From contig JACOSH010000392.1 in the NCBI GenBank assembly GCA_016178945.1, positions 1-41,825 on the forward strand: a stretch of DNA of 41,825 nt, read 5' to 3'. The notes below the pieces were generated by a model, which saw nothing but the letters and a program-made list of their open reading frames with translations, ran no database searches and was not told the DNA's origin. Of this stretch, positions 7,897 to 28,655 are shown in pieces (position 1 is the first letter of the stretch; every line of letters begins with the position of its first letter). The stretch is from Acidobacteriota bacterium (GTDB lineage: Bacteria; Acidobacteriota; Terriglobia; Bryobacterales; Bryobacteraceae). Made by a program: the position numbers and the translations under genes.

Positions 7897-8589
7897 CTAG
7901 GCGCCGGCCCGTCTATACCAGCGCACCACCTGCGGTTTCCGCCACAAATACGGGTTCGGCACGACCAGAATGTGCACCAACCGGGTGAACGGGAAGAACC
8001 CGATCAGCGCGTACGCGTTGACGATGTGTACCTTCACGGCCAGCGGCATGGCCGCGATCGATTGGATCTCCGGATTCAGCTTGAGCAGCGACCACAAATA
8101 TGGGGTGGCGGTGGCGGCAAACCAGGATGAGCCCCAGGGGTGGAACAGGGCGACCCAGATCCCGCTCACCACTTGGATTACCAGCAGGACGAAGACCACC
8201 CAATCCGAAGTCGTGGTCACGCGCCGGATCTTGGATTCCGAAAGACGCCGCGCGATGGCCGCGCATAATCCCACCAGCGTCAGGAGCGCGAAGATCAGTC
8301 CCGACACCTCCAGGAAGTAGAGCCGCAGCGGGACGCTGTTGAACAGCAGGACCTCTCGGGGAATCAGAAAGCCCAGGATGTGCCCGGTCAACACCGCCAG
8401 GATTCCGTAGTGGAAGGGCACCAGTCCCCAGAAGTGCTGCTGGTTCTCCAGGAACTGCGACGACAGGCTGGAGTAGCTGAACGACTGCATCCGGTAGCGC
8501 TGGATCGTCACCAGGAAGAACGTAAAGAAAGCCATGTACGGGAAGACCGCGAACAGCAGTTCATCCAGGTAGTGTGGAGAGCCATTCAT
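7897..8589 (-). CDS. narI: Respiratory nitrate reductase gamma subunit NarI
   Basis: A 230-residue membrane cytochrome b with five predicted helices. It oxidises quinol and passes electrons through two haems b to NarH. Candidate haem ligands are His60, His70, His188 and His206; the 10- and 18-residue spacings equal those of the E. coli ligands (56/66 and 187/205). The start M-N-G-S-P at 8589 overlaps the narJ stop (ATGA). The C-terminus ends R-K-P-Q-V-V-R-W-Y-R-R-A, typical of the cytoplasmic tail. Confidence 0.95.
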   Translation of the reverse strand: MNGSPHYLDELLFAVFPYMAFFTFFLVTIQRYRMQSFSYSSLSSQFLENQQHFWGLVPFHYGILAVLTGHILGFLIPREVLLFNSVPLRLYFLEVSGLIFALLTLVGLCAAIARRLSESKIRRVTTTSDWVVFVLLVIQVVSGIWVALFHPWGSSWFAATATPYLWSLLKLNPEIQSIAAMPLAVKVHIVNAYALIGFFPFTRLVHILVVPNPYLWRKPQVVRWYRRAGA

Positions 8590-9124
8590 TGCTCGACTCC
8601 TTCCAAGATGGGAAACAGGTTCATCTCCGGCTTCCGCTCGCCCGGGGGAAGGCCCGTTTGATGGCACAACTCGGTGCGAATCGCCTGCAGCAGGAACTCA
8701 TAGGGATTCCCCTTTCCCTGGAGGCCGGCGAGCATCTTCTCCACCGCCGGCAGGACAAGTTGGGCCGCGAATTGGGCCGCCTCGGTGGGTGTCATCCGCG
8801 CCAGAACCATCAGGACCTGGGTGAGGTGGTCCGGCAGCTCGGCCGACTCGGCCAACTCGAACCGGCGCAGTTGCTGCCGCATGGTCACCAGGAAGCGGCC
8901 GCGCTCGTAGTTCTCGCCGTAAAGCTGCCAGCCGGCTTCGAGCGAGCAGAGCGGATTGATGTCGAAGGTGCGGGTGTAGAGTTCCTCGCGCTCCTCGACG
9001 TGGAGAGCCAGGACGGGCTTGGCGAACTCTCCCAGCAAACGCGCGGTCTCCGGATTCTCCGCCAGCGGGATCTTCAGCGGACCCAGCGGGTAATCCAACA
9101 AAGCGGCCAGATCGTCGTACAGCA

Positions 9125-9125
<1 letters not shown>
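8586..9125 (-). CDS. narJ: Nitrate reductase molybdenum cofactor assembly chaperone NarJ
   Basis: A 179-residue all-helical protein of the NarJ/TorD chaperone family. The N-terminal D-D-L-A-A-L-L-D-Y-P segment and the Y-T-R-T-F-D-I-N-P-L-C-S-L-E core motif are characteristic. It is a cytoplasmic private chaperone that binds apo-NarG and assists cofactor insertion and membrane attachment; it is not part of the final enzyme. The ATG shares one base with the narH stop and the stop overlaps narI. Confidence 0.93.
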
Positions 9126-10615
<1,490 letters not shown>

Positions 10616-10631
10616 CGCGATTCTCCTTTCC

Positions 10632-14279
<3,648 letters not shown>

Positions 14280-14282
14280 CCA

Positions 14283-15113
14283 TCACCTCGTCAATTCCAT
14301 CCCCCGAACCAAGGGGCGGCGCACCGCCCGGAACCGTCTCTTCCACGCCGCGTCGCAGGCCGCCAGCCCGATCACCGCCCCGCCCAACGCCAGGAAAAAG
14401 AAGTTGAGCAGCGCCACGGAATCGTCCTGCCCGCCGCGCTTGGCCGAGTCCTCGAACAGGGCCACCAGCAGCAGGGCCTCGTTGGCGTCCAGCGGGTGCT
14501 TGCGAAAGATGGGCTGCATGGTGGGCGTGGCCGGCGCAAACAACCAAGACGCCAGGTTCTTGCGTCCTTCCAGGCGTTCGAAGACCCGGGTCAAATCCGG
14601 CGCCAGCCGGCCGCCGCCGAGCCCTCCCAGGTCCTTCATGGTGTGGCAGGAGATACAGGGCGGCCCCCCGTTGAGCAGCTTCCGGGTTCCCCGGAACATT
14701 CGCCGGCCCTGCTCGATGTCCTCTCCGGTGAACGGGCGGTCGCTGATCTGCAGGCCGATGAACTGCGATTTTTCCAGCTTGGATTCGGCCTCGATCAGGC
14801 CCAGCAGCGCTTCGGCGCGCGCTTTGTTCATCCCCTGGACGGTGGGCATCACCACGCCGCGCGCCTGCTGCTGGAGCTGGAGCGCATAAGCGTCCCCGCT
14901 GTTGATCATTCCCTGGGGATTCATCAGGAATCGCGTCAGCCAGGCGGGGTCCTTCCGCTGGCCCACGTCCTTGAGGTCGGGCCCGGTGAGGCGCCCGCCG
15001 CCGATGGTGTGACAGCTTACGCAGTTCTGACGAAAGAACTCGGCCGCCTCCTGCGCGCCTCCCAGCGCCGGGAGAATCGCGGCGACCAGTAGCCGGACAT
15101 TGAACCGATTCAT
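14283..15113 (-). CDS. narC: Membrane-anchored dihaem cytochrome c upstream of narG (NarC-like)
   Basis: A 276-residue protein with an N-terminal signal (residues 6-20), two cytochrome c domains with haem motifs C-V-S-C-H (31-35) and C-I-S-C-H (153-157), and a C-terminal membrane helix (about 233-254) ending in a basic tail. Gene order narC-G-H-J-I-K resembles the Thermus nar cluster, where NarC is a dihaem cytochrome associated with the nitrate reductase. Function by analogy: electron exchange between periplasmic cytochromes and NarI or complex III. Its ATG overlaps the stop of the upstream regulator gene (ATGA). The symbol reflects position as much as similarity. Confidence 0.8.
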   Translation of the reverse strand: MNRFNVRLLVAAILPALGGAQEAAEFFRQNCVSCHTIGGGRLTGPDLKDVGQRKDPAWLTRFLMNPQGMINSGDAYALQLQQQARGVVMPTVQGMNKARAEALLGLIEAESKLEKSQFIGLQISDRPFTGEDIEQGRRMFRGTRKLLNGGPPCISCHTMKDLGGLGGGRLAPDLTRVFERLEGRKNLASWLFAPATPTMQPIFRKHPLDANEALLLVALFEDSAKRGGQDDSVALLNFFFLALGGAVIGLAACDAAWKRRFRAVRRPLVRGMELTR

Positions 15114-16502: not shown

Positions 16503-16927
16503 TGCTCTCCACCACCTCGCAACACGCGCTGCGGGCGCTGACGCACATGGCGTCCCTGCCCGAAGGGACTGCCATCCTGGGCCGGCAGTTGTCTGAGCGG
16601 GCCGGCATTCCGGCGAACTATCTCTCCAAAATTCTGTTGACGTTGGGCAACGCCGGTATCCTCGACGCCACACGCGGAACCGGCGGCGGGTACCGGTTAC
16701 GGAAGAAGCCGGAGCAAATCCGGCTCATCGAGGTGGTCGATCTGTTCGATCGGGCGCGGGCCCGGCCGGAGTGCTTTCTGGGCGGCGGCAGGATCTGCTC
16801 GGACACCAGCCCCTGCACCGCGCACGGGGAGTTCCGCGATGTGCGCGCCACCTACCTCCGATTCCTGGAATCCACCTCGATTGCCGATATCTCTCTCATG
16901 GAGCGCCCCAGAGGACGCAAGCGATGA
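16502..16927 (+). CDS. Rrf2-family Fe-S regulator coupled to inositol catabolism genes
   Basis: A 141-residue paralogue of the regulator at 15110-15535, the same length and alignable throughout, including I-P-A-N-Y-L-S-K-I-L and G-T-G-G-G-Y-R-L. Cys91, Cys99 and Cys105 keep the NsrR-like spacing. It should bind an Fe-S cluster and sense NO, oxygen or iron status. The stop overlaps the iolE start (ATGA), so it is co-translated with iolE. It lies 57 bases after the Fe-S repair gene. Whether it acts on the iol genes, the nar genes or both is not shown by sequence. Confidence 0.88.
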   Translation: MLSTTSQHALRALTHMASLPEGTAILGRQLSERAGIPANYLSKILLTLGNAGILDATRGTGGGYRLRKKPEQIRLIEVVDLFDRARARPECFLGGGRICSDTSPCTAHGEFRDVRATYLRFLESTSIADISLMERPRGRKR

Positions 16928-17802
16928 AGATTCGCGTTGCCAATGCCCCTGTAAGCTGGGGAATCATGGAGATCGAGGGCTGGAGCCCTCCTCTGCCGGC
17001 GGCAAGCTTCCTCGACCAGTTGCAGAGCGCTGGCTATACCGGCACGGAACTGGGTCCGTACGGCTACCTCCCCACCGATCCACTGGCCCTCGGCCGGGAA
17101 TTGGAGCGCCGCGGTCTGACCCTGACTTCCGCCTTCGTCCCGCTGCGGCTGAAGGAGCCCAATCTCGACCTGACGCCTGCCGAGACGGTAGCCCGGCTGC
17201 TGGGCGCGCTGGGAGCGCGATACCTGGTGCTGGCCGATGCGCTGTGGCCCGAGCGGGAAGCCATCGCCGGCCGCGTGCAGCAGTCCAACGTCCGGCTCAG
17301 CGAGGCGGAGTGGAACACGGCCAGCCGCAACCTCGCCGCGGCATCGCAGCTCGCGTCCGGATTCGGACTCAGGAGCGTCTTCCACCATCACGCCGGCACC
17401 TACATTGAGACGCCCGCTGAGATTGCCCGACTGCTGCAGGCGGCCCCGGTAGGGCTGTGCCTGGACACCGGCCACTACGTCTACGGCGGCGGCGACCCGG
17501 TCGAGGCGCTGGAGACTTTCGGCGCGCGGGTCGAGTATCTGCATTTCAAGGACGTCGATCCAGGCCGCCTGGAAGCTGCCCGAAAGGCCGGGCTGGGCTT
17601 TCTCGATGGAGTGCGCGCCGGCGTGTTCTGCCCCCTGGGCCAGGGATGCGTCCGGCTTGCCGATCTCCTGGATCGCCTTGACAAGATGAACTACGACGGC
17701 TGGGCCGTGGTGGAGCAAGACGCCGATCCGGCGGGCCGGTCCGACCCGTTTCAGGACGCCCTCGCCAGCCGTGAATTCCTGCGCTCCACGCTCGGGCTAT
17801 GA
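16924..17802 (+). CDS. iolE: Inosose dehydratase-like sugar phosphate isomerase/epimerase
   Basis: A 292-residue TIM-barrel protein of the xylose-isomerase-like family. The N-terminus N-A-P-V-S-W-G-I-M-E and G-T-E-L-G-P-Y-G-Y-L-P are typical of IolE (2-keto-myo-inositol dehydratase). Metal-binding and catalytic regions include F-H-H-H-A-G-T-Y near 154-160, C-L-D-T-G-H-Y near 180 and V-V-E-Q-D near 263. Neighbouring iolD and iolC support the assignment. The ATG at 16924 overlaps the regulator stop; a longer frame from 16771 is spurious. Confidence 0.88.
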   Translation: MKIRVANAPVSWGIMEIEGWSPPLPAASFLDQLQSAGYTGTELGPYGYLPTDPLALGRELERRGLTLTSAFVPLRLKEPNLDLTPAETVARLLGALGARYLVLADALWPEREAIAGRVQQSNVRLSEAEWNTASRNLAAASQLASGFGLRSVFHHHAGTYIETPAEIARLLQAAPVGLCLDTGHYVYGGGDPVEALETFGARVEYLHFKDVDPGRLEAARKAGLGFLDGVRAGVFCPLGQGCVRLADLLDRLDKMNYDGWAVVEQDADPAGRSDPFQDALASREFLRSTLGL

Positions 17803-17823
17803 TTGACCAAGGAGACCGCCCCT

Positions 17824-19677
17824 ATGACGCGACGACTCACGATGGCGCAGGCCGTCATTGAATTCCTCAAGCGGCAGAGCGTGGAACGGGATGGAAACCG
17901 GCGCCGGTTCTTCGCCGGCTGTTTCGGGATCTTCGGCCACGGCAATGTCGCAGGGATCGGGCAGGCGCTCCAGCAAAACCTCGACTTCCCCTTTTACCTC
18001 TGCCGCAACGAGCAGGCCATGGTCCACACGGCCGCCGCCTTCGCCAAGATGAGCAACCGGCTGCGGACATTGGTCTGCACTTCCTCGATCGGGCCCGGCG
18101 CCACCAACATGATCACCGGCGCGGCCGCCGCCACCATCAATCGCGTGCCGGTGCTGCTGCTGCCGGGAGATATCTTCGCGCGGCGCAACGTCGCCCCGGT
18201 CTTGCAACAACTGGAATCGCCCTGCTCACAGGACATCTCGGTCAACGACTGCTTCCGGCCGGTCTCCCGCTACTGGGACCGCATCCAGCGTCCCGAGCAG
18301 ATCCTGACCGCGCTCCCCGAGGCGATGCGCGTGCTGACCTCGCCGTCCGACACCGGCGCGGTGGTGCTGGCCCTGCCCCAGGACGTGCAGGCCGAGGCCT
18401 TCGATTACTCCGCGGCTTTGTTCGAAGAGCGGGTTTGGACCATCCAGCGCCCGCGGGGCGATGCCGGGATCTTCCGCCGCGCCGTGGAATGGATCCGCCA
18501 GTCGCGCCGGCCGATGATCGTCGCCGGGGGAGGGGTCCTCTATTCCGAGGCCACCGAGGCGCTCTCCCGCTTCGCCGCCCAGACCGGGATTCCGGTCGCC
18601 GAGACGCAGGCCGGCAAGGGATCCTTGTGCTACAACCACGGTCAGGCCTTGGGCGCGATGGGCGTCACCGGCACTCCCGGCGCCAATATCCTGGCGCGGG
18701 AAGCGGACCTGGTGATCGGGATCGGCACCCGTTACAGCGACTTCACCACCGCCTCCAAGACTGCGTTCCAGAATCCCGGCGTGCGCTTCATCAACATCAA
18801 CGTCGCCGAGTTCGACGCGGCGAAACACTCCGGTCTGGCGTTGATCGCCGATGCCCGCGTCGCGCTCGACGATCTCGGCCAAGCCCTGGCCGGCTACCAG
18901 GTCTCTGGAGAATACCGCGGGCAAATCGATCGCTTCCGCGCCGAATGGGAGCAGGAGGTCGACCGGATCTACGGCCTCGGCCACGGCCCGCCCATCAGCC
19001 AGGGCGAGGTGATCGGCGCCGTCAACAGCTTCTCCCGCCCCCAGGACGTCATGGTCTGCGCCGCGGGCAGCATGCCCGGCGATCTCCACAAGCTGTGGCG
19101 GACCCGCGATCCCAAGGGCTACCACCTCGAGTACGGCTATTCGACCATGGGCTACGAAATCGCCGGAGGCCTGGGGATCAAGATGGCCGATCCGGCGCGC
19201 GAGGTCTACGTGATGGTCGGCGACGGCTCGTACCTGATGATGGCCCAGGAGATCGTCACCTCGATCCAGGAAGGCTACAAGCTGAACATCGTGGTGGTCG
19301 ACAATCACGGGTTCAGCAGCATCGGGGGCCTGAGCCGCGCCTGCGGTAGCGGCGGATTCGCCACCGAGTATCGTTACCGCGGCGATGGAGTCCTGGGCGG
19401 CGAGACGTTGCCGGTAGACTTCGTGGCCAACGCCGCCAGCCTGGGCGCGTACGCCGTTCGCGCCCGCACCCGCGAGGAGCTCGGAGCGGCTCTGTCGGCG
19501 ACGCGCGGCCAGGATCGCACAAGTGTAGTGGTGGTCGAGACCGACCTCAACCAGCGGGTCCCCGGCTACGAATCCTGGTGGGACGTCCCCATCGCCGAGG
19601 CATCCGAAATGGAGGCCGTGCGGACCGCTCGTCGCGAGTATGAGATCGCCCGGAAGAGGGAGCGATACTTCCTGTGA
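17824..19677 (+). CDS. iolD: 3D-(3,5/4)-trihydroxycyclohexane-1,2-dione acylhydrolase
   Basis: A 617-residue thiamine-diphosphate enzyme that opens the ring of the inositol intermediate made by IolE. The pyrimidine-binding domain has the R-N-E-Q-A-M-V-H-T-A glutamate motif. The pyrophosphate-binding motif is V-G-D-G-S-Y-L near residue 470, with N-H-G-F about 30 residues later. Size and internal sequence fit IolD rather than acetolactate synthase. ATG at 17824 has AAGGAG nine bases upstream; a TTG at 17803 is less likely. It follows iolE by 21 nt. Confidence 0.92.
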   Translation: MTRRLTMAQAVIEFLKRQSVERDGNRRRFFAGCFGIFGHGNVAGIGQALQQNLDFPFYLCRNEQAMVHTAAAFAKMSNRLRTLVCTSSIGPGATNMITGAAAATINRVPVLLLPGDIFARRNVAPVLQQLESPCSQDISVNDCFRPVSRYWDRIQRPEQILTALPEAMRVLTSPSDTGAVVLALPQDVQAEAFDYSAALFEERVWTIQRPRGDAGIFRRAVEWIRQSRRPMIVAGGGVLYSEATEALSRFAAQTGIPVAETQAGKGSLCYNHGQALGAMGVTGTPGANILAREADLVIGIGTRYSDFTTASKTAFQNPGVRFININVAEFDAAKHSGLALIADARVALDDLGQALAGYQVSGEYRGQIDRFRAEWEQEVDRIYGLGHGPPISQGEVIGAVNSFSRPQDVMVCAAGSMPGDLHKLWRTRDPKGYHLEYGYSTMGYEIAGGLGIKMADPAREVYVMVGDGSYLMMAQEIVTSIQEGYKLNIVVVDNHGFSSIGGLSRACGSGGFATEYRYRGDGVLGGETLPVDFVANAASLGAYAVRARTREELGAALSATRGQDRTSVVVVETDLNQRVPGYESWWDVPIAEASEMEAVRTARREYEIARKRERYFL

Positions 19678-20621
19678 TCGACGTCTCGATTCTGGGCCGC
19701 ATCGGCTACGACCTGTATTCGGAAGAACCCCACGTGCCGCTCCCTCGCGTGCGGCGCTTCTCGCGCTACTTGGGCGGATCGAGCGCCAACATGGCGGTGG
19801 GGCTGGCGCGGCTGGGCGCCTCGGTAGGCATAGCCGGCTGCCTGGGCACGGACGCGTTGAGCGACTATCTGCTGGAGTTCCTCCGGTCCGAGAAGGTCGA
19901 CACCTCGCGGGTGCTCCGGGCTCCGGGCTTTCTCCCCTCGCTCTGCCTGACCGAGGTGGCGCCCCCGGACCGCTTCCCGCAGGTCTTCTACCGCCGCGAT
20001 CCCGCCGACACGCAGGTGGACCTGGGCGAGGCGGAGTTGAGCTACCTGGCCTCGGCCCGGATGTTCATCACCAATGGCACCTCGCTGTGCGCCTCGCCGT
20101 CGCGCGAATCGACTTATCTGGCTCTGGAGCGCGCCAAGGCGGGCGGCGCGCGCGTGGTGCTGGATGTCGACTACCGGTCCATGTCCTGGCGCAAGCCGGA
20201 GGAAGCCGGCCTGGCCGTGCGCCTGGCGCTGCCGCTGGTCGACGTCCTGATCGGCAACGACCTGGAGCTGAAGCTCGTTGCCGGCGCGGACACGCTCGAC
20301 CAGGCGATCGCCAAGCTGCGGGGCGCCCGCCTGCCAATGCTGGTTTCAAAACTGGGCGACCAGGGCACGCGGGTGTGGATGGGTGGCGAATCCGTCTTTC
20401 AGGAGCCTTACCGCGTCGAAGTGGTCTCGACCATCGGCGCGGGCGACGGCTTCGCTTCGGGCTTTCTCTACGCGCTGCTGCGCGACATGCCCGTCTCCGA
20501 GTGCCTCCACTACGGGAACGCCGCGGCGGCGATCGTGGTCAGCCGTCTGAGCTGTTCGGAAGCCATGCCGGCGCTGGCCGAGGTCGAAGCCCTCATGGGC
20601 CGGCAGCGGGCGCGGGCCTGA
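19674..20621 (+). CDS. iolC: 5-dehydro-2-deoxygluconokinase (PfkB family)
   Basis: A 315-residue ribokinase-fold sugar kinase. The N-terminal L-G-R-I-G-Y-D-L-Y and Y-L-G-G-S-S-A-N-M-A-V-G-L-A-R-L-G segments match IolC. The PfkB signature with the catalytic base is T-I-G-A-G-D-G-F-A-S-G-F near residue 252. It phosphorylates 2-deoxy-5-keto-gluconate. The GTG start overlaps the iolD stop (GTGA). The isomerase (iolB), dehydrogenase (iolG) and aldolase (iolJ) steps are not in this window. Confidence 0.9.
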   Translation: MIDVSILGRIGYDLYSEEPHVPLPRVRRFSRYLGGSSANMAVGLARLGASVGIAGCLGTDALSDYLLEFLRSEKVDTSRVLRAPGFLPSLCLTEVAPPDRFPQVFYRRDPADTQVDLGEAELSYLASARMFITNGTSLCASPSRESTYLALERAKAGGARVVLDVDYRSMSWRKPEEAGLAVRLALPLVDVLIGNDLELKLVAGADTLDQAIAKLRGARLPMLVSKLGDQGTRVWMGGESVFQEPYRVEVVSTIGAGDGFASGFLYALLRDMPVSECLHYGNAAAAIVVSRLSCSEAMPALAEVEALMGRQRARA

Positions 20622-22859: not shown

Positions 22860-24632
22860 ATGTTTAAGCATGCCACCCTGACTCCTCGCAAGCGTCTCAT
22901 CCTCCGGCACACCTTGACCGGAATGACCCTGGTGGTTCTGACGACCGGCATCCTCTTTTCTCTGCGCAAACGGCCCGAGCCTTACGCGCCTGGCGGCGAA
23001 ATCGAGGGCGTGACCAGCGAGCTCAGCCGCCGGGCGCCCGCCGGTTACCCAGCCGTCCGTTTCGTGGATGTGGCCCGCGAGGCCGGAATCGGCTTTCGCC
23101 ACTTTCCCGGCAAGCGGACCACTCAACTCCCCGAAGACATGGGCTCGGGAGCGGCCTGGGGCGATTTCGACAACGACGGCTACCTGGACCTGTACGTCTG
23201 CGATGTCGCCGGCCCGGCTCAGGGCGGCAACCGGCTCTATCGGAACAACGGCGACGGCGCCTTCACCGACGTGACGGCAAGAGCCGGCGTGGGCTACCGG
23301 GGAGCCTCCATGGGAGCAGCCTGGGCCGACTACGACAATGACGGCTACCTCGACCTCGTGGTCACCAGCTTCGATCGCATCGTCCTCTACCGCAACCTGG
23401 GCAATGGCTCGTTTGCCGACGTCTCCCACGCCGCCGGCCTGGACGGATTCCGCGGCTTCTGGACCGGCGCCTCCTGGGCCGACTATGATCGCGATGGCCA
23501 CGCCGATCTTTACATCTGCGGCTATGTCCGGTACTCTTTCCAGCCCGAGTTCGCCGGCAAGACCTCGCGGCAGTTCGAGACCCTGGTCCCCTTCACCCTC
23601 AATCCTTCGTCGTACCCGCCGGAGCGCAACCTGCTCCTGCACAACAACGGCAGGGGGGGCTTCACGGATATGGCCCGCCAGGCGGGCGTCGCCAATCCCA
23701 CCGGTCGCAGCCTCTCGGCCGCCTGGTGCGACTTCGACGAGGACGGCTGGCCCGACCTGTACGTGGCCAACGATGTCTCCGATAACGCCATGTTCCGCAA
23801 TCTGGGCAACGGCAGGTTCGAAGATATCTCGCACAGCGCCTGGGTCGCCGACTACCGCGGCGCCATGGGCCTGGCCATCGGCGACTTCGACCGCGACGGC
23901 GATTTCGACATCTTCATCACCCACTGGATCGCCCAGCAGGACGCGCTGTTCTGGAACCTGCGCTACAGCCACGATGGGGGTTCGAAGCCGGGACCGCTCC
24001 GGTTCACCGACATCGCCGACATGAGCGGCGTTGGGCAGATCTCCCTTGGCGTGATCGGCTGGGGAACTTCGTTTTTCGACTACGACAATGATGGCCAGCT
24101 CGACCTGTTCGTGGCCAATGGCAGCACCTTCCAGGACGAGAAGGATCCGAGCCGCCTGGTCCCCATGAGGAACTTCCTCTTCTGGCAGAAGAGCCCGGCC
24201 GACGGTTTCTTCGAGGTCGGCCGGCTCAGTGGAAAGGTCTTTGAGGAGCTGCATGTGGGACGCGGCGCCGCGTTCGCCGATTACGACAACGACGGCGACG
24301 TGGACATTTTCGTGGTCAACCACTCAGGCCCGCCGCTGCTGCTGCGTAACGACGGCGGCAACCGGAACAACTGGGTCAAGGTGCGGCTCCGCGCCCGCAA
24401 GAGCAACCGCAGCGCCATCGGCGCGGTCGTTGAGATCGAAACCGCGGGCGTCCGGCAGAAACATCAGATCGGCAGCCAGCCCTCGTACCTCTCGCAGAAC
24501 GCGCTGGAGGCGCACTTCGGCGTGAGCCGCCACGCCGTGGTGGACCGTCTGACGGTGCGCTTTCCGAGTGGACTGGTCCAGGAGCTGCGCCAGGTCCCCG
24601 TCAACCGCCTGATCACGGTGGAGGAGCCATGA
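22860..24632 (+). CDS. CRTAC family protein: FG-GAP/VCBS repeats with ASPIC/UnbV C-terminal domain
   Basis: A 590-residue protein with an N-terminal membrane segment (about 18-37), so exported and anchored. About seven calcium-binding-like D-x-D-x-D-G-x-x-D-L repeats (for example G-D-F-D-N-D-G-Y-L-D-L-Y) build a beta-propeller. The last 110 residues, N-N-W-V-K-V-R-L to R-L-I-T-V-E-E-P, are an ASPIC/UnbV domain. The family's biochemical role is unclear; surface binding or scaffolding of an extracytoplasmic complex is plausible. It follows the cytochrome gene by 12 nt and overlaps the next gene (ATGA). Confidence 0.85.
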   Translation: MFKHATLTPRKRLILRHTLTGMTLVVLTTGILFSLRKRPEPYAPGGEIEGVTSELSRRAPAGYPAVRFVDVAREAGIGFRHFPGKRTTQLPEDMGSGAAWGDFDNDGYLDLYVCDVAGPAQGGNRLYRNNGDGAFTDVTARAGVGYRGASMGAAWADYDNDGYLDLVVTSFDRIVLYRNLGNGSFADVSHAAGLDGFRGFWTGASWADYDRDGHADLYICGYVRYSFQPEFAGKTSRQFETLVPFTLNPSSYPPERNLLLHNNGRGGFTDMARQAGVANPTGRSLSAAWCDFDEDGWPDLYVANDVSDNAMFRNLGNGRFEDISHSAWVADYRGAMGLAIGDFDRDGDFDIFITHWIAQQDALFWNLRYSHDGGSKPGPLRFTDIADMSGVGQISLGVIGWGTSFFDYDNDGQLDLFVANGSTFQDEKDPSRLVPMRNFLFWQKSPADGFFEVGRLSGKVFEELHVGRGAAFADYDNDGDVDIFVVNHSGPPLLLRNDGGNRNNWVKVRLRARKSNRSAIGAVVEIETAGVRQKHQIGSQPSYLSQNALEAHFGVSRHAVVDRLTVRFPSGLVQELRQVPVNRLITVEEP

Positions 24633-26245
24633 GGAGCGCTTGGCTTTGGATTGGCGCCTCGGCGGTCAGCGGGCTGCTGGCTCTCTGGGTGGTCACCCCG
24701 GGCTCCTCGGTGGGATCGCGCGAGGCGGACGGTCCACGGGAGGCCGAAAAACAGCGCATCAGGAGCTTCTGGAATTCCTACCACCAGGCCAACTCCCTGC
24801 GTCTTCAGGGCGATCCAGCCGGCGCGGCGCAGCTCTACCGGCAGTGTCTCGATGTCGACCCCCATCATGAGGACTCTCTCTACTACCTGGCAGTCAGCCT
24901 TGAAGAGATGGGAGACTACCAGCCGGCCGCGGCCACGCTGCGGAAGCTGATCGAGCTGAATCCCTCCAGCGGCCGCGCGCTCTCGGAGTTGGCCAACGTC
25001 TTATCCACACCGGCGCCCGGCGCGCCCGCCGGCTTCCCCGAGGCTCGACGGGCCCTGGAATGTACCGTCGAAGTGAACCGGGAGCAAGCCGGCCCCTTCC
25101 TGCGGCTATGCCTGCTCGATCTCAACGAAGGGAAGTTCGACGCCGCCCTGGTCCGTTTCCGAACCGCCGCCGGATTCGGCTCTCCCGAAGGCAACTACTG
25201 GATCGGGTACACCTACTATCTGCTCCACCGGCGCCCGGAAGCCCTCCAGTTCTTCCACAAGGTGCTCGACCGGTACGCGCAGGAGCGAAAAATGGCGGGA
25301 CAAGGCATCCGCGCCGAGGGCGACGTATGGCCCGATGCCACCAAGCCGCTGACCGCGCTGGAGCGATCCGCTCTGAAGGCGACGCTCTTTTCCCGCTGGA
25401 TCGAGACGTCCGGCCCGGAAGTCGCCGGCATCAAGCTGGAAGGGGGCCGCGCGGCGCCCTCCTTTGAGGTCCAGCGCACCGGGCGCCCCAGGGCCCGCGT
25501 CCTGTTGATCGACCTCGACGGAGACGGCCAGGCGGAGCGCGTCGAGGCCGGCGCCGAGCTACGCCTGTATCGCCGCGAGGGCGACCGCTGGGTCGAGCGA
25601 ACCGCGCACTCCGGACTGGTCTCCGCAGGATGGGTCACCGATATCGTCGCGGCCGATTTCAATGGTGACGGCCGCCCGGATTTGTTCGTGCTCCGGTGGC
25701 TCAAAGACGCGGCGCTCTACCTGAATCGAGGCGGCGGCCTGTTCTCCGATTCGACCGCGCAGTCCGGGCTGCAGGGCATCCGCGGGCGCAGCTTCAGCGC
25801 GCTTTCCTTCGACTACGACCGGGACGGCCGCCTGGACCTGCTGGTCAGCGCGCATGCGCCCTTCGACGATGTCGCCCGGAGTCTCCTCCAGCCCGAATTC
25901 AAACCCGCGGCCCACACGCCCCGGCTCTTCCACAATCGTGGCGAGGGTTCCTTTGAGGACGTCACTGCCGCCGCCGGGCTCACCACCTGCTACGGCACGA
26001 TGCAGGCCCTGGCCGCCGACCTGGATTCGGATGGTTACCCGGACCTGCTTCTGGTCAATGGCAGTCCGGATGCCCTCCGCCTGGAGCCGACCGTTCTCCT
26101 GCGAAACGTGGAGGGCCGGGAATTTCGCCCCTGGCCACAGGCGCTGGGCATGGACCGCCCAGCCAATCGGATCGGCGCATTGGTTCAGGCCCCGGGAATC
26201 AATCTGGTCCCCAATCCTTTGCTTTCGAGGAGGGCCGCCCGATGA
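24629..26245 (+). CDS. TPR protein with C-terminal FG-GAP/VCBS repeats
   Basis: A 538-residue protein with an N-terminal signal or anchor helix (5-24). Residues about 45-220 are helical tetratricopeptide-like repeats (A-A-Q-L-Y-R-Q-C-L-D-V-D-P-H-H and so on). The C-terminal half has four D-x-D/N-x-D-G repeats, such as A-D-F-N-G-D-G-R-P-D-L-F and F-D-Y-D-R-D-G-R-L-D-L-L. It lacks the ASPIC/UnbV domain of the preceding gene. It likely partners that protein outside the membrane. Starts with ATGA overlap and GGAGGAG upstream; its stop overlaps the methyltransferase start. Confidence 0.82.
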   Translation: MRSAWLWIGASAVSGLLALWVVTPGSSVGSREADGPREAEKQRIRSFWNSYHQANSLRLQGDPAGAAQLYRQCLDVDPHHEDSLYYLAVSLEEMGDYQPAAATLRKLIELNPSSGRALSELANVLSTPAPGAPAGFPEARRALECTVEVNREQAGPFLRLCLLDLNEGKFDAALVRFRTAAGFGSPEGNYWIGYTYYLLHRRPEALQFFHKVLDRYAQERKMAGQGIRAEGDVWPDATKPLTALERSALKATLFSRWIETSGPEVAGIKLEGGRAAPSFEVQRTGRPRARVLLIDLDGDGQAERVEAGAELRLYRREGDRWVERTAHSGLVSAGWVTDIVAADFNGDGRPDLFVLRWLKDAALYLNRGGGLFSDSTAQSGLQGIRGRSFSALSFDYDRDGRLDLLVSAHAPFDDVARSLLQPEFKPAAHTPRLFHNRGEGSFEDVTAAAGLTTCYGTMQALAADLDSDGYPDLLLVNGSPDALRLEPTVLLRNVEGREFRPWPQALGMDRPANRIGALVQAPGINLVPNPLLSRRAAR

Positions 26246-27015
26246 TGCCGGCCCTGGCGCCTACGGTAACCCTGCGTGACGCCGTGCGCGAGGCCTACTC
26301 GGCCGCCGCCGCGGATCCCGAGCAAAGGCACCAGTTCCCTCGCGGGCGTGAGCTGGCCGCGAACCTGGGCTACCCCCGCCACCTGCTGGCCGACTTGCCC
26401 GAAGAGTGCGTTGAGGCTTTTTGCGGGGTTTCCAACGTGCCGCTCTTCGCCGATCTCCCGGGCGACGAAGTCGTTCTCGACTTAGGATGCGGAGCGGGGC
26501 TGGACTCGCTGGTGGCCGCCCGGCGAGCCGCCGAGGTAATCGGCGTGGATTTCAGCCCCGCCATGATCGCTCGCGCCCGGCGCGCCCGGCAGCGGGCCGA
26601 CGCCGCCAACGTGCATTTCTGCATGGCCGCCGCCGAAGCTCTGCCTCTGCGCGGCGCCTCCATCGACGTGGTTCTGGTCAATGGCATCTTCAACCTCAAT
26701 CCCGCACGGGACGCGATCTTCGCCGAGCTCGCGCGGGTCACCCGCCCCGGAGCGGTGGTGTATGCCGCCGAGATCGTTCTGCGAGAGCCGCTGGCCCGGC
26801 TCCGCCGGCTATTTCCGGGGAAGCGGGACGAAGTCCCCGAAAACCCTGCCGGCTGGTTCGCCTGAATCGCCGGCGCCAAGGAAGGCGGGGCCTTCCTCAA
26901 CGAGTTCCGCGCCGCCGGATTTGGCCAGGCGCGCATTCTCCGCACCACCCGCAACGCGCGCACCCGGAACCCGCTCGTGGTGGTGGCGGAAGTTGTCGCC
27001 CGGAGGACATTCTGA
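26242..27015 (+). CDS. ArsM-like SAM methyltransferase, candidate selenoprotein (Sec208 read from TGA)
   Basis: Read to the first TGA this is 207 residues; reading TGA 26863-26865 as selenocysteine gives 257 residues ending at TGA 27013. The class I fold shows motif I V-L-D-L-G-C-G-A-G near 78-86, G-V-D-F-S and a second Cys region E-A-F-C-G-V-S-N (Cys61). Across the TGA the frame reads W-F-A-[TGA]-I-A-G-A then F-R-A-A-G-F, which is the ArsM-family W-x-x-C-V/I-A-G-A ... A-A-G-F region. The TGA falls on the conserved metalloid-binding Cys. The downstream part keeps family sequence, arguing against a decayed gene. Substrate could be arsenite or another thiophile; unproven. ATG overlaps the TPR gene stop. 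Confidence 0.8.
26863..26897 (+). promoter_or_regulatory. Candidate Sec codon and bacterial SECIS hairpin
   Basis: TGA (26863-26865) is followed by a perfect 7-bp stem AGGAAGG (26879-26885) / CCTTCCT (26891-26897) closing a five-base loop CGGGG. Twenty bases separate TGA and loop, and the loop has G in its second position. These values fit the published bacterial SECIS rules (16-37 base spacing, small loop, G in the first two loop bases). An outer stem between CCGGCG (26870-26875) and the CGCCGG after 26910 could extend it. Confidence 0.7.
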
Positions 27016-28655
27016 CCGCCGATAAGCATCCCAAGGGCTCTCATGCCCGTATCCTGCTGACCTCCGTCTTCGGTCCTTTCGCCCAAGACGATGAGTTCGG
27101 CAGCCGTTCCATCAACCCGATGGAGCTTTATCACAACCAGGTGACCCGCGCCCAAGGCGCTTTCTCCCTGCGCATGTTTCACCGGTCCTGGGGCATCATG
27201 CTCATCCAGGAGAACATCTCGGCCCCCTGCACCGTGCTCGACTTTCCCACTCGCGAGGCCTTCGCCCGGGAGCTTCAAGCCCATCGTTACGACATCGTGG
27301 GGATCTCCTCCATCATCGTCAACGTCGGCAAAGTCCGCGAGATGTGCCGCATGGTCAGGGAGGTTTCCCCGCACTCCACCCTGGTGGTGGGCGGGCACGT
27401 TTCCGCCATTGCCGACATAGCGAGCCGGGTGGACGCCGACCACATCGTCCGGGGCGACGGTGTTTCCTGGATGCGCCGCTTCCTGGGCGAGGATGCCGCC
27501 GCCCCGATCCGCCATCCGGAAATCGTCTCCGGTTTCGGACATCGCGTGATGGGCCTGAAACTGCCGCGGAACAGCGGCTCGACCGCCGCCACGGTCATCC
27601 CCTCGGTCGGCTGCCCGCTGGGCTGCAACTTCTGCACCACCTCCGCCTTCTTCGGCGGCAAAGGCAAGTTCCTGAATTTCTACCAGACCGGCGAGCAGCT
27701 CTACGAGCTTATGTGCCGCCTCGAGCAACGGCTCAAGGTGCGATCCTTTTTCATGATGGACGAGAACTTCCTGCTATACCGCAAGCGCGCCATCCAGCTC
27801 CTGGAGCGGATGAAGGAAGGTGGAAAGAGCTGGGAGTTGTACGTGTTCTCCTCGGCCAACGCGATCGGCAAGTACACGGTCGAGGAGTTGGTGAGCCTGG
27901 GCGTTTCCTGGGTTTGGATGGGCCTGGAGTCGCCCCACTCAAGGTATGCCAAACTCCAGGGCGCCGACACTCTCCAATTGGCCCACGAGCTGCGCCGGCA
28001 CGGCATTAAGCTGCTTGGCTCCACCATCGTTGGCCTGGAGCATCACACGCCGCAGAACATGGTCGAAGAGATCGAGCACGCCGTGGCCCATGAAACCGAC
28101 TTCCACCAGTTCATGCTCTACACCCCGGTCCCCGGCACCCCGCTCTACCAGGAAATGGACCGGCAAGGGAAACTCCTCGACGTGGATCTGGCCGACATCC
28201 ATGGCCAGGACAAATTCAATTTTGAGCACGCGGCCATCTCCCGCGAGGACTCGAAGCGGTTTCTCGACTGGGCCTTCTGGCGCGACTTCGAGCGCAACGG
28301 CCCCAGCCTGTTTCGCATCTGCCGCACCACCCTGGAAGGCTGGAAACGCTACAGGAATCACCCCGAGCAGCGCATCCGCGAGCGCTTTGAGCGGGAGGCC
28401 AGGATGCTCAAAAGCGCCTACGCCGGAATGCTCTGGGCGATGGAGCACCATCTGCGCGAAACCAACCAGGCGGTCAGCCAGCAGGTCCGGGCGCTGCGCC
28501 AGGACATCGCCCGCGAGTTGGGGGCCGCCTCCCAGTGGGCTGCGCGCCTGCTCGGCCCGCTCCTGCTCTGGACCGCGCGGCGCGAAGAAAAACGGCTGGC
28601 CCGCGGCGTCACTTACGAGCCGCGCATGATCGTCGAGCGAAGAAACTGGGCTTAG
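27012..28655 (+). CDS. B12-binding-domain radical SAM enzyme
   Basis: A protein of about 547 residues. The N-terminal 190 residues look like a Rossmann-type cobalamin-binding domain (R-I-L-L-T-S-V, Y-D-I-V-G-I-S-S, T-L-V-V-G-G-H-V). The radical SAM motif is C-P-L-G-C-N-F-C (Cys201, 205, 208), then barrel segments such as M-M-D-E-N-F and G-L-E-S-P. The C-terminus is a helical extension. Many relatives methylate unreactive carbons or phosphorus; the substrate here is unknown. No ATG/GTG fits: the best start is CTG at 27012 with GGAGGA five bases upstream, overlapping the preceding stop as CTGA. It is the last gene of the operon. Confidence 0.82.
   Translation: MTADKHPKGSHARILLTSVFGPFAQDDEFGSRSINPMELYHNQVTRAQGAFSLRMFHRSWGIMLIQENISAPCTVLDFPTREAFARELQAHRYDIVGISSIIVNVGKVREMCRMVREVSPHSTLVVGGHVSAIADIASRVDADHIVRGDGVSWMRRFLGEDAAAPIRHPEIVSGFGHRVMGLKLPRNSGSTAATVIPSVGCPLGCNFCTTSAFFGGKGKFLNFYQTGEQLYELMCRLEQRLKVRSFFMMDENFLLYRKRAIQLLERMKEGGKSWELYVFSSANAIGKYTVEELVSLGVSWVWMGLESPHSRYAKLQGADTLQLAHELRRHGIKLLGSTIVGLEHHTPQNMVEEIEHAVAHETDFHQFMLYTPVPGTPLYQEMDRQGKLLDVDLADIHGQDKFNFEHAAISREDSKRFLDWAFWRDFERNGPSLFRICRTTLEGWKRYRNHPEQRIRERFEREARMLKSAYAGMLWAMEHHLRETNQAVSQQVRALRQDIARELGAASQWAARLLGPLLLWTARREEKRLARGVTYEPRMIVERRNWA

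Follow-up and report, generated by a model that had tools for sequence, protein, structure and literature searches.

An ArsM-superfamily methyltransferase with a predicted selenocysteine at an arsenic-ligand position and without its partner cysteines

The window, which is the whole 41,825-nucleotide stretch of Acidobacteriota DNA analysed here, carries a gene for an S-adenosylmethionine (SAM)-dependent methyltransferase of 257 amino acids (26242 to 27015, plus strand) with one in-frame UGA, at codon 208, that is predicted to be read through. We propose that the product is very probably a selenoprotein: a methyltransferase of class I within the ArsM superfamily, whose selenocysteine (Sec) at UGA 208 provides a lone selenolate that holds a soft substrate. 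On the sequence evidence, the decoding of UGA 208 as Sec is close to certain, and an arsenical as the substrate is a possibility that we hold somewhat less likely than its converse. The surprise is in the missing partner cysteines around the Sec, rather than in the Sec itself.

The frame consists of 257 codons and a TGA terminator at 27013-27015, and its ATG shares bases with the stop of the upstream gene in an ATGA overlap. A preliminary description of this DNA had reported a continuous frame split by an in-frame TGA at 26863, exactly at the conserved ArsM cysteine, and both statements hold. The TGA at 26863-26865 (plus strand) is the only internal one between 26242 and 27015, and a phmmer alignment places codon 208 on the cysteine of GECLAGA in 5evj, a solved arsenite methyltransferase, which is the column of CmArsM Cys224. 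The local motif around the predicted Sec208 is UIAG, of the UxxG type; were codon 208 a stop, the N-terminal part would be 207 amino acids long. The pattern of substitutions indicates that the frame remains coding past the UGA: in 52 rows of the window's clade (the main clade), differences at codon positions 1, 2 and 3 are 0.26, 0.24 and 0.62 after the UGA and 0.34, 0.27 and 0.65 upstream of it, stops interrupt the other two frames after the UGA in 33 and 37 of the 52 rows, and W205, G211, A212, F218, E221, F227, N238 and R240 are invariant in a 22-row clade alignment.

The same UGA recurs among separately assembled relatives. When 101 genomes, the window's own and those of relatives, were searched, nine strong matches resulted (E value of 6.2e-61 or better; the window is one of them). 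Every one has a single in-frame TGA, and one match also extends across its terminal TAG. A scan of 84,980 species, with one genome per species and six peptide patterns that all leave out codon 208, yielded 53 loci, and the TGA is at the site in all 52 that are related (the 53rd, L106, is not). These 52 comprise 43 full or nearly full-length genes, three copies of loci from the 101-genome search that were counted apart (L061, L082, and L083), three frame-broken loci (L100, L101, and L103), and three contig-edge fragments (L102, L104, and L105). Because the same TGA recurs in 52 of 52 relatives, a base error is unlikely. We aligned 55 rows, of which 43 were not picked by their TGA (L085, L091, and L096 are not quite complete) and 12, including the window, came from the 101-genome search and were picked for it; L036, whose match ends just before its TGA, was left out, as was L035 (G028 C89), a decayed gene copy with several stops. 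The 55 rows divide into 52 of the main clade, with the motif W-x-x-U-[IV]-x-G-A at the site, and three of a sister clade. Matches above 340 bits to a profile of the clade number five among 396 genomes of the phylum, the window among them, and two among 251 genomes of another phylum, and every one has one TGA; the next-best matches fall below 215 bits. The records from the species scan are labelled Acidobacteria (and sub-groups), Chloroflexi, Deltaproteobacteria, Proteobacteria, Methylomirabilota, Rokuibacteriota, Planctomycetota, Magnetobacteriaceae, Myxococcales, and Thermoleophilia, and nearly all are metagenome-assembled.

A hairpin resembling a selenocysteine insertion sequence (SECIS) lies just downstream, at 26879 to 26897 on the plus strand (AGGAAGGC-GGG-GCCTTCCT), with its loop about 21 nucleotides after the UGA. 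The preliminary description gave it as a 7-bp stem (AGGAAGG/CCTTCCT) with the loop CGGGG, starting 13 bases past the TGA and with the loop 20 bases past it, and we find it as described; an energy model makes it 8 bp with the loop GGG. We rejected the window's hairpin taken alone as evidence, as it is not significant against shuffles or recodings: when the 25-nucleotide element is dinucleotide-shuffled, 18 of 200 versions fold equally well, as do 109 and 113 of 200 for longer stretches around it and 17% of 300 synonymous recodings. Across 52 loci including the window, the mean hairpin energy is -11.9 kcal/mol compared with -8.0 for synonymous recodings, with none of 300 recoded sets as low, and at 20 control windows within these genes z is between -2.5 and +1.6. 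When the test is widened to 131 rows and these are grouped by the residue at the site, the excess over recodings is found in UGA genes of the main clade (z -8.4, 0 of 200 sets, 56 rows) and of the sister clade (z -7.7, 0 of 200, 29 rows), but not in sister-clade Cys genes (z +0.4, 132 of 200, five rows only) or three-cysteine genes (z -0.9, 33 of 200, 39 rows); another two Sec genes reach z -1.9 (5 of 200). The hairpin therefore goes with the UGA, exceeding codon constraint in Sec genes and not in Cys genes. Its distance from the UGA is about five bases shorter in most sister-clade genes, and a few individual sister-clade Sec genes (for example, L200 and L205) fold no better than their own recodings. 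Pairing holds in 92.8% of cells of a 52-row alignment and in 50-77% when the partner is slid by one to three columns.

The protein matches Pfam Methyltransf_31 (3.6e-24), which makes it a class I SAM methyltransferase. Ranked by E value, its NCBIfam matches begin with three selenoprotein families, ArsM_AhpD_UU (NF041537; 168.7 bits, cut-off 510), MTase_UXPK_star (NF047649; 159.2 bits, cut-off 460), and ArsM_DUF2284_UU (NF041536; 134.3 bits, cut-off 575), followed by the arsenite methyltransferase family NF008823 (133.3 bits), whose curated cut-off of 263 it does not reach; no cut-off is reached among the matches listed (25 of 53 matching families). All 22 members of the clade alignment match these four families, the comparison with cut-offs being for the first member only. 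An AlphaFold2 model built from the 22-row alignment (mean predicted local distance difference test score of 89) most resembles ArsM in 10 of the 11 best PDB chains, with RebM as the remaining one, and on this model the window protein has the ArsM-type SAM-dependent methyltransferase fold. A second ArsM, in which all three As(III)-ligand columns are cysteine (C-C-C), is present in the same genome (L145; G000 C598:414-1208) and scores 356.8 bits, above the NF008823 cut-off. Since this C-C-C enzyme is 34% identical to the window protein over 180 residues, the two likely have different tasks.

The As(III) ligands of CmArsM are Cys72, Cys174, and Cys224; as reported in PMC3877260, the C72A mutant loses methylation of inorganic arsenic (iAs) alone, and C174A and C224A methylate neither iAs nor monomethylated arsenic (MMA). 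In the window protein, the first two columns are Val63 (26428 to 26430) and Gly148 (26683 to 26685), both on the plus strand as is the gene, so by alignment two of the three ligands are absent and the third is the predicted Sec208, which leaves no canonical As(III) site. The sole cysteine kept in all 52 main-clade rows is Cys83 (26488 to 26490, plus strand), in the SAM-binding motif DLGCGAG. Among 131 distinct rows (out of 133), column 174 is Gly in all 87 Sec rows, in which column 72 is V, T, M, or I. The 44 Cys rows are C, C, and C in 39 cases, and the other five are sister-clade rows with Gly at 174 and Cys at 224. All 31 canonical rows chosen by NF008823 score alone and aligned with the 55 Sec rows keep the three cysteines, and the Sec column aligns with Cys in each of the 31. 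The preliminary description had proposed looking for Cys or Sec at this column in homologues, and both occur: Sec in relatives, and Cys in canonical enzymes and the five sister-clade rows. These five genes (L154, L178, L186, L195, and L199), with Cys in place of Sec, lack the partner cysteines too. Two Sec methyltransferases that branch beside the main clade, L191 and L193, share its C-terminal RNART motif and are possibly a third Sec group.

The composition of the 131-row set bears on how these counts are to be read. Rows entered the sample through their similarity to the clade and to NF008823, and they came from two phyla, a selection of 24 genomes, and one pattern scan, so a C-C-Sec form is possible elsewhere, outside the sampled set. 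One of the six scan patterns includes Gly148, and Gly there is partly built into those loci; rows from the 101-genome search and from both phylum scans are free of this bias. The two phylum scans contributed fetched loci only (39 rows). From one listing of 20 loci, eight were added and eight others duplicate main-clade genes; the remaining four, as read by eye, are L150 and L153 with Sec and Gly and L163 and L165 with C-C-C, and these were not used. For 85 of the 131 rows, a tree computed by a quick search with the three ligand columns removed and with its root not known, recovers the main clade and the three-cysteine group each as a monophyletic group (Shimodaira-Hasegawa-like approximate likelihood ratio test support of 99 each). 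On this tree, the Sec/Cys label needs five changes and the Gly/Cys label at column 174 needs one; the Cys rows L178 and L186 are on long branches, and L032, labelled as other Sec by a string rule, is positioned inside the main clade. With C72 and C174 missing and a single change of state at column 174, we tentatively consider that the Sec branches form a separate lineage without the As(III) thiolate trap, rather than improved arsenite methylases, in which a lone selenolate would either hold a different soft substrate or itself be methylated as a relay; we think this less probable than not. The substrates in that case may be a methylated arsenical, Sb, Te, Hg, or an organic thiol.

In the mechanism that we favor, the hairpin just 3' of UGA 208 would assist its decoding as Sec, and Sec208 would stand where CmArsM has its As(III) ligand Cys224. 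The single selenolate would capture a soft electrophile without partner thiolates, most plausibly a trivalent arsenical that already bears methyl groups or small thiols as ligands, or else a comparable metalloid, and the captured substrate would be positioned for methyl transfer from SAM. The preliminary description had inferred Sec decoding that gives a more nucleophilic metalloid-binding site; the decoding is strongly supported, and the second part is weakened, the canonical As(III) site being absent, with Val63 and Gly148 in place of cysteines. We consider it unlikely that Sec merely improves a canonical As(III) site in what would otherwise be an ordinary arsenite methyltransferase. The superfamily and fold match and the coincidence of the Sec column with the As(III) ligand Cys224 are in keeping with such an enzyme, as is TtArsM of Thermus thermophilus, which has a single cysteine (position 77), methylates As(III) to MMA and dimethylated arsenic (DMA), and is called evolutionarily distant from other ArsMs (PMC8649762). 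On the other hand, the first two ligand columns are occupied by Val and Gly, with Gly at the second in every Sec row, the CmArsM mutants at the second and third columns fail on both iAs and MMA (PMC3877260), the NF008823 score is about half of the cut-off (133 versus 263), and a separate C-C-C ArsM is encoded in the same genome. Since the single-cysteine Thermus enzyme makes MMA and DMA, an arsenical substrate stays possible for the lone-selenolate enzyme that we propose, and the name "ArsM-like selenoprotein" holds with arsenite as a putative substrate only.

Several results weigh against the lone-selenolate reading. Neither selB nor selD was found by family search of the window genome assembly (7.34 Mb, 606 contigs, 92% complete), and selB was found neither by tblastn with the SelB of eight relatives on loci fetched from this genome nor by a search of the genome for the SelB-wing_3 domain. 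SelB is over the cut-off in six of nine carriers of a full main-clade gene compared with 80 of 92 other genomes, so its co-occurrence gives no support, being near-universal in relatives and unfound in three of the nine carriers. Both sides of the hairpin change in three of six pairs; 41 of 500 shuffles match this count, as do two slid controls, so it is not exceptional and covariation adds little. A Cys form is absent from the main clade itself (0 of 56 rows), the exchange being seen in the sister clade only. As read from the alignment, a protein that has lost two of the three ligands is not expected to bind As(III) in the ordinary way, and a conserved neighbor that would fix the substrate is not found among 52 loci (51 fetched loci and the window, with fragments and broken genes included).

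Of the Sec machinery that the preliminary description proposed to search for, the tRNA-Sec gene (77.7 bits, anticodon tca) and selA (350 bits, truncated by a contig end) are present; neither selB nor selD turned up in this assembly. Of the 101 genomes searched for selB, window genome included, 86 have it above the cut-off, and of the 61 searched for selD (window genome again included) 52 have it, often with one TGA; because of this in-frame TGA in many relatives, SelD in this group is probably a selenoprotein itself. At L148 in one relative (G085 C197, 4880-9074), a sister-clade Sec methyltransferase adjoins selB and selA. We rejected four window-genome candidates by eye: for SelB, C499 (EF-Tu), C51 (CysN, adjoining a CysD-like frame), and an end fragment of C56 (EF-Tu-like), and for SelD, C291, with a ThiL-like frame start followed by a methyltransferase-like part. 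We infer that the missing selB and selD reflect a gap in the assembly. Their absence would also fit UGA 208 as a true stop, leaving a functional 207-amino-acid N-terminal product or a pseudogene, as would the extra stops of decayed L035 and the broken frames of L100, L101, and L103; we regard this as very improbable, since coding is conserved and residues are invariant around and past the UGA, the hairpin is tied to the UGA, and the TGA occupies the same codon in 52 of 52 relatives. Least probable of all is that the UGA encodes another amino acid (through a reassigned code or a suppressor tRNA, for example as Trp) or is an assembly error, a reading with nothing beyond the unfound selB and selD in its favor that we rejected in view of the TGA common to separately assembled relatives, the Cys at this column in canonical and some sister-clade homologues, the use of TGA as terminator by both the methyltransferase gene and the upstream gene, and the tRNA-Sec gene.

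The preliminary description had left it undecided whether such a selenoprotein is already catalogued, and as a kind Sec ArsM-type proteins are. Table 1 of PMC13188914 places "Arsenite methyltransferase" (NF008823, UxxG) in the group "Experimentally verified," with Fomenko 2007 as its source, and gives ArsM_AhpD_UU, ArsM_DUF2284_UU, and MTase_UXPK_star as UxxG, citing Haft and Tolstoy 2025. The Global Ocean Sampling (GOS) survey reports eight arsenite S-adenosylmethyltransferase selenoproteins in four samples of ocean data, with 245 Cys homologues (PMC2398784), and the same enzyme is among the selenoproteins of PMC9312934. The window protein shares with the Sec arsenite methyltransferase (PRK11873/NF008823) the ArsM superfamily, one Sec, and the UxxG motif, but misses that family's cut-off, the comparison being by score and motif. 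With the three UU and star families it shares the UxxG motif and a methyltransferase part that aligns over approximately residues 10-236; those families carry a second Sec domain, judging by their names and profile lengths, whereas the window protein stands alone, its frame terminating at 27015 with no fused second Sec domain. Like CmArsM, CrArsM, and AS3MT (the C72/C174/C224 type), it has the fold, the SAM domain, and the last ligand position, but unlike them it is predicted to lack two of the three As(III) ligands and to have Sec as the third. Cys72, Cys174, and Cys224 are conserved in 343 ArsM sequences of PMC5552862, a set that was chosen for at least three of four cysteines. By description, the protein can also be likened to TtArsM in having a single chalcogen ligand, with the TtArsM cysteine at position 77 (PMC8649762). 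In the parts of the literature covered by our searches, we recognized no publication on this clade or on Sec forms without partner cysteines; papers outside them may describe either.

The gene upstream (24629 to 26245, plus strand), which overlaps the methyltransferase start, encodes tetratricopeptide (TPR) and FG-GAP repeats, and the gene downstream (27000 to 28655, plus strand; 5' end not fixed), which begins near the methyltransferase end, encodes a B12-binding radical SAM protein. Counterparts of these two direct neighbors are absent from clusters of four or more loci in the 52-locus comparison. One gene cluster occurs nearby in nine of the 52 loci, all from records labelled Acidobacteria or groups within it, on the same strand in eight (L066, L069, L072, L076, L082, L086, L093, and L105) and on the opposite strand in L054. 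The one member scanned, from L066, is nucleoside phosphorylase-like (PNP_UDP_1), and such a neighbor would fit removal of the nucleoside product of SAM. A LysR cluster is present in four loci, with NF040786 (selenium metabolism LysR) as the best match of two scanned members, under the cut-off. Other clusters occur in at most 10 loci, and the largest consists, by eye, of histidine kinases. Elsewhere in the window, we observed by eye frames resembling an operon for respiratory nitrate reductase, cytochrome genes included (8586-15113, minus strand), and frames resembling inositol catabolism genes of the IolE, IolD, and IolC types (16771-20621, plus strand).

Gene callers likely truncate the genes of this clade at the UGA, which would leave them unseen. 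The Sec and Cys genes of this one superfamily, including the five Cys genes of the sister clade, provide a natural control for SECIS detection, and those five genes are also natural single-cysteine controls for the protein. If the Sec branches are indeed a separate lineage, the database name "arsenite methyltransferase" would be wrong for these selenoproteins. The residue pattern makes that label testable, as it poses the question of whether, and in what way, arsenic is still methylated by an ArsM-type enzyme that has a lone selenolate and lacks partner thiols.

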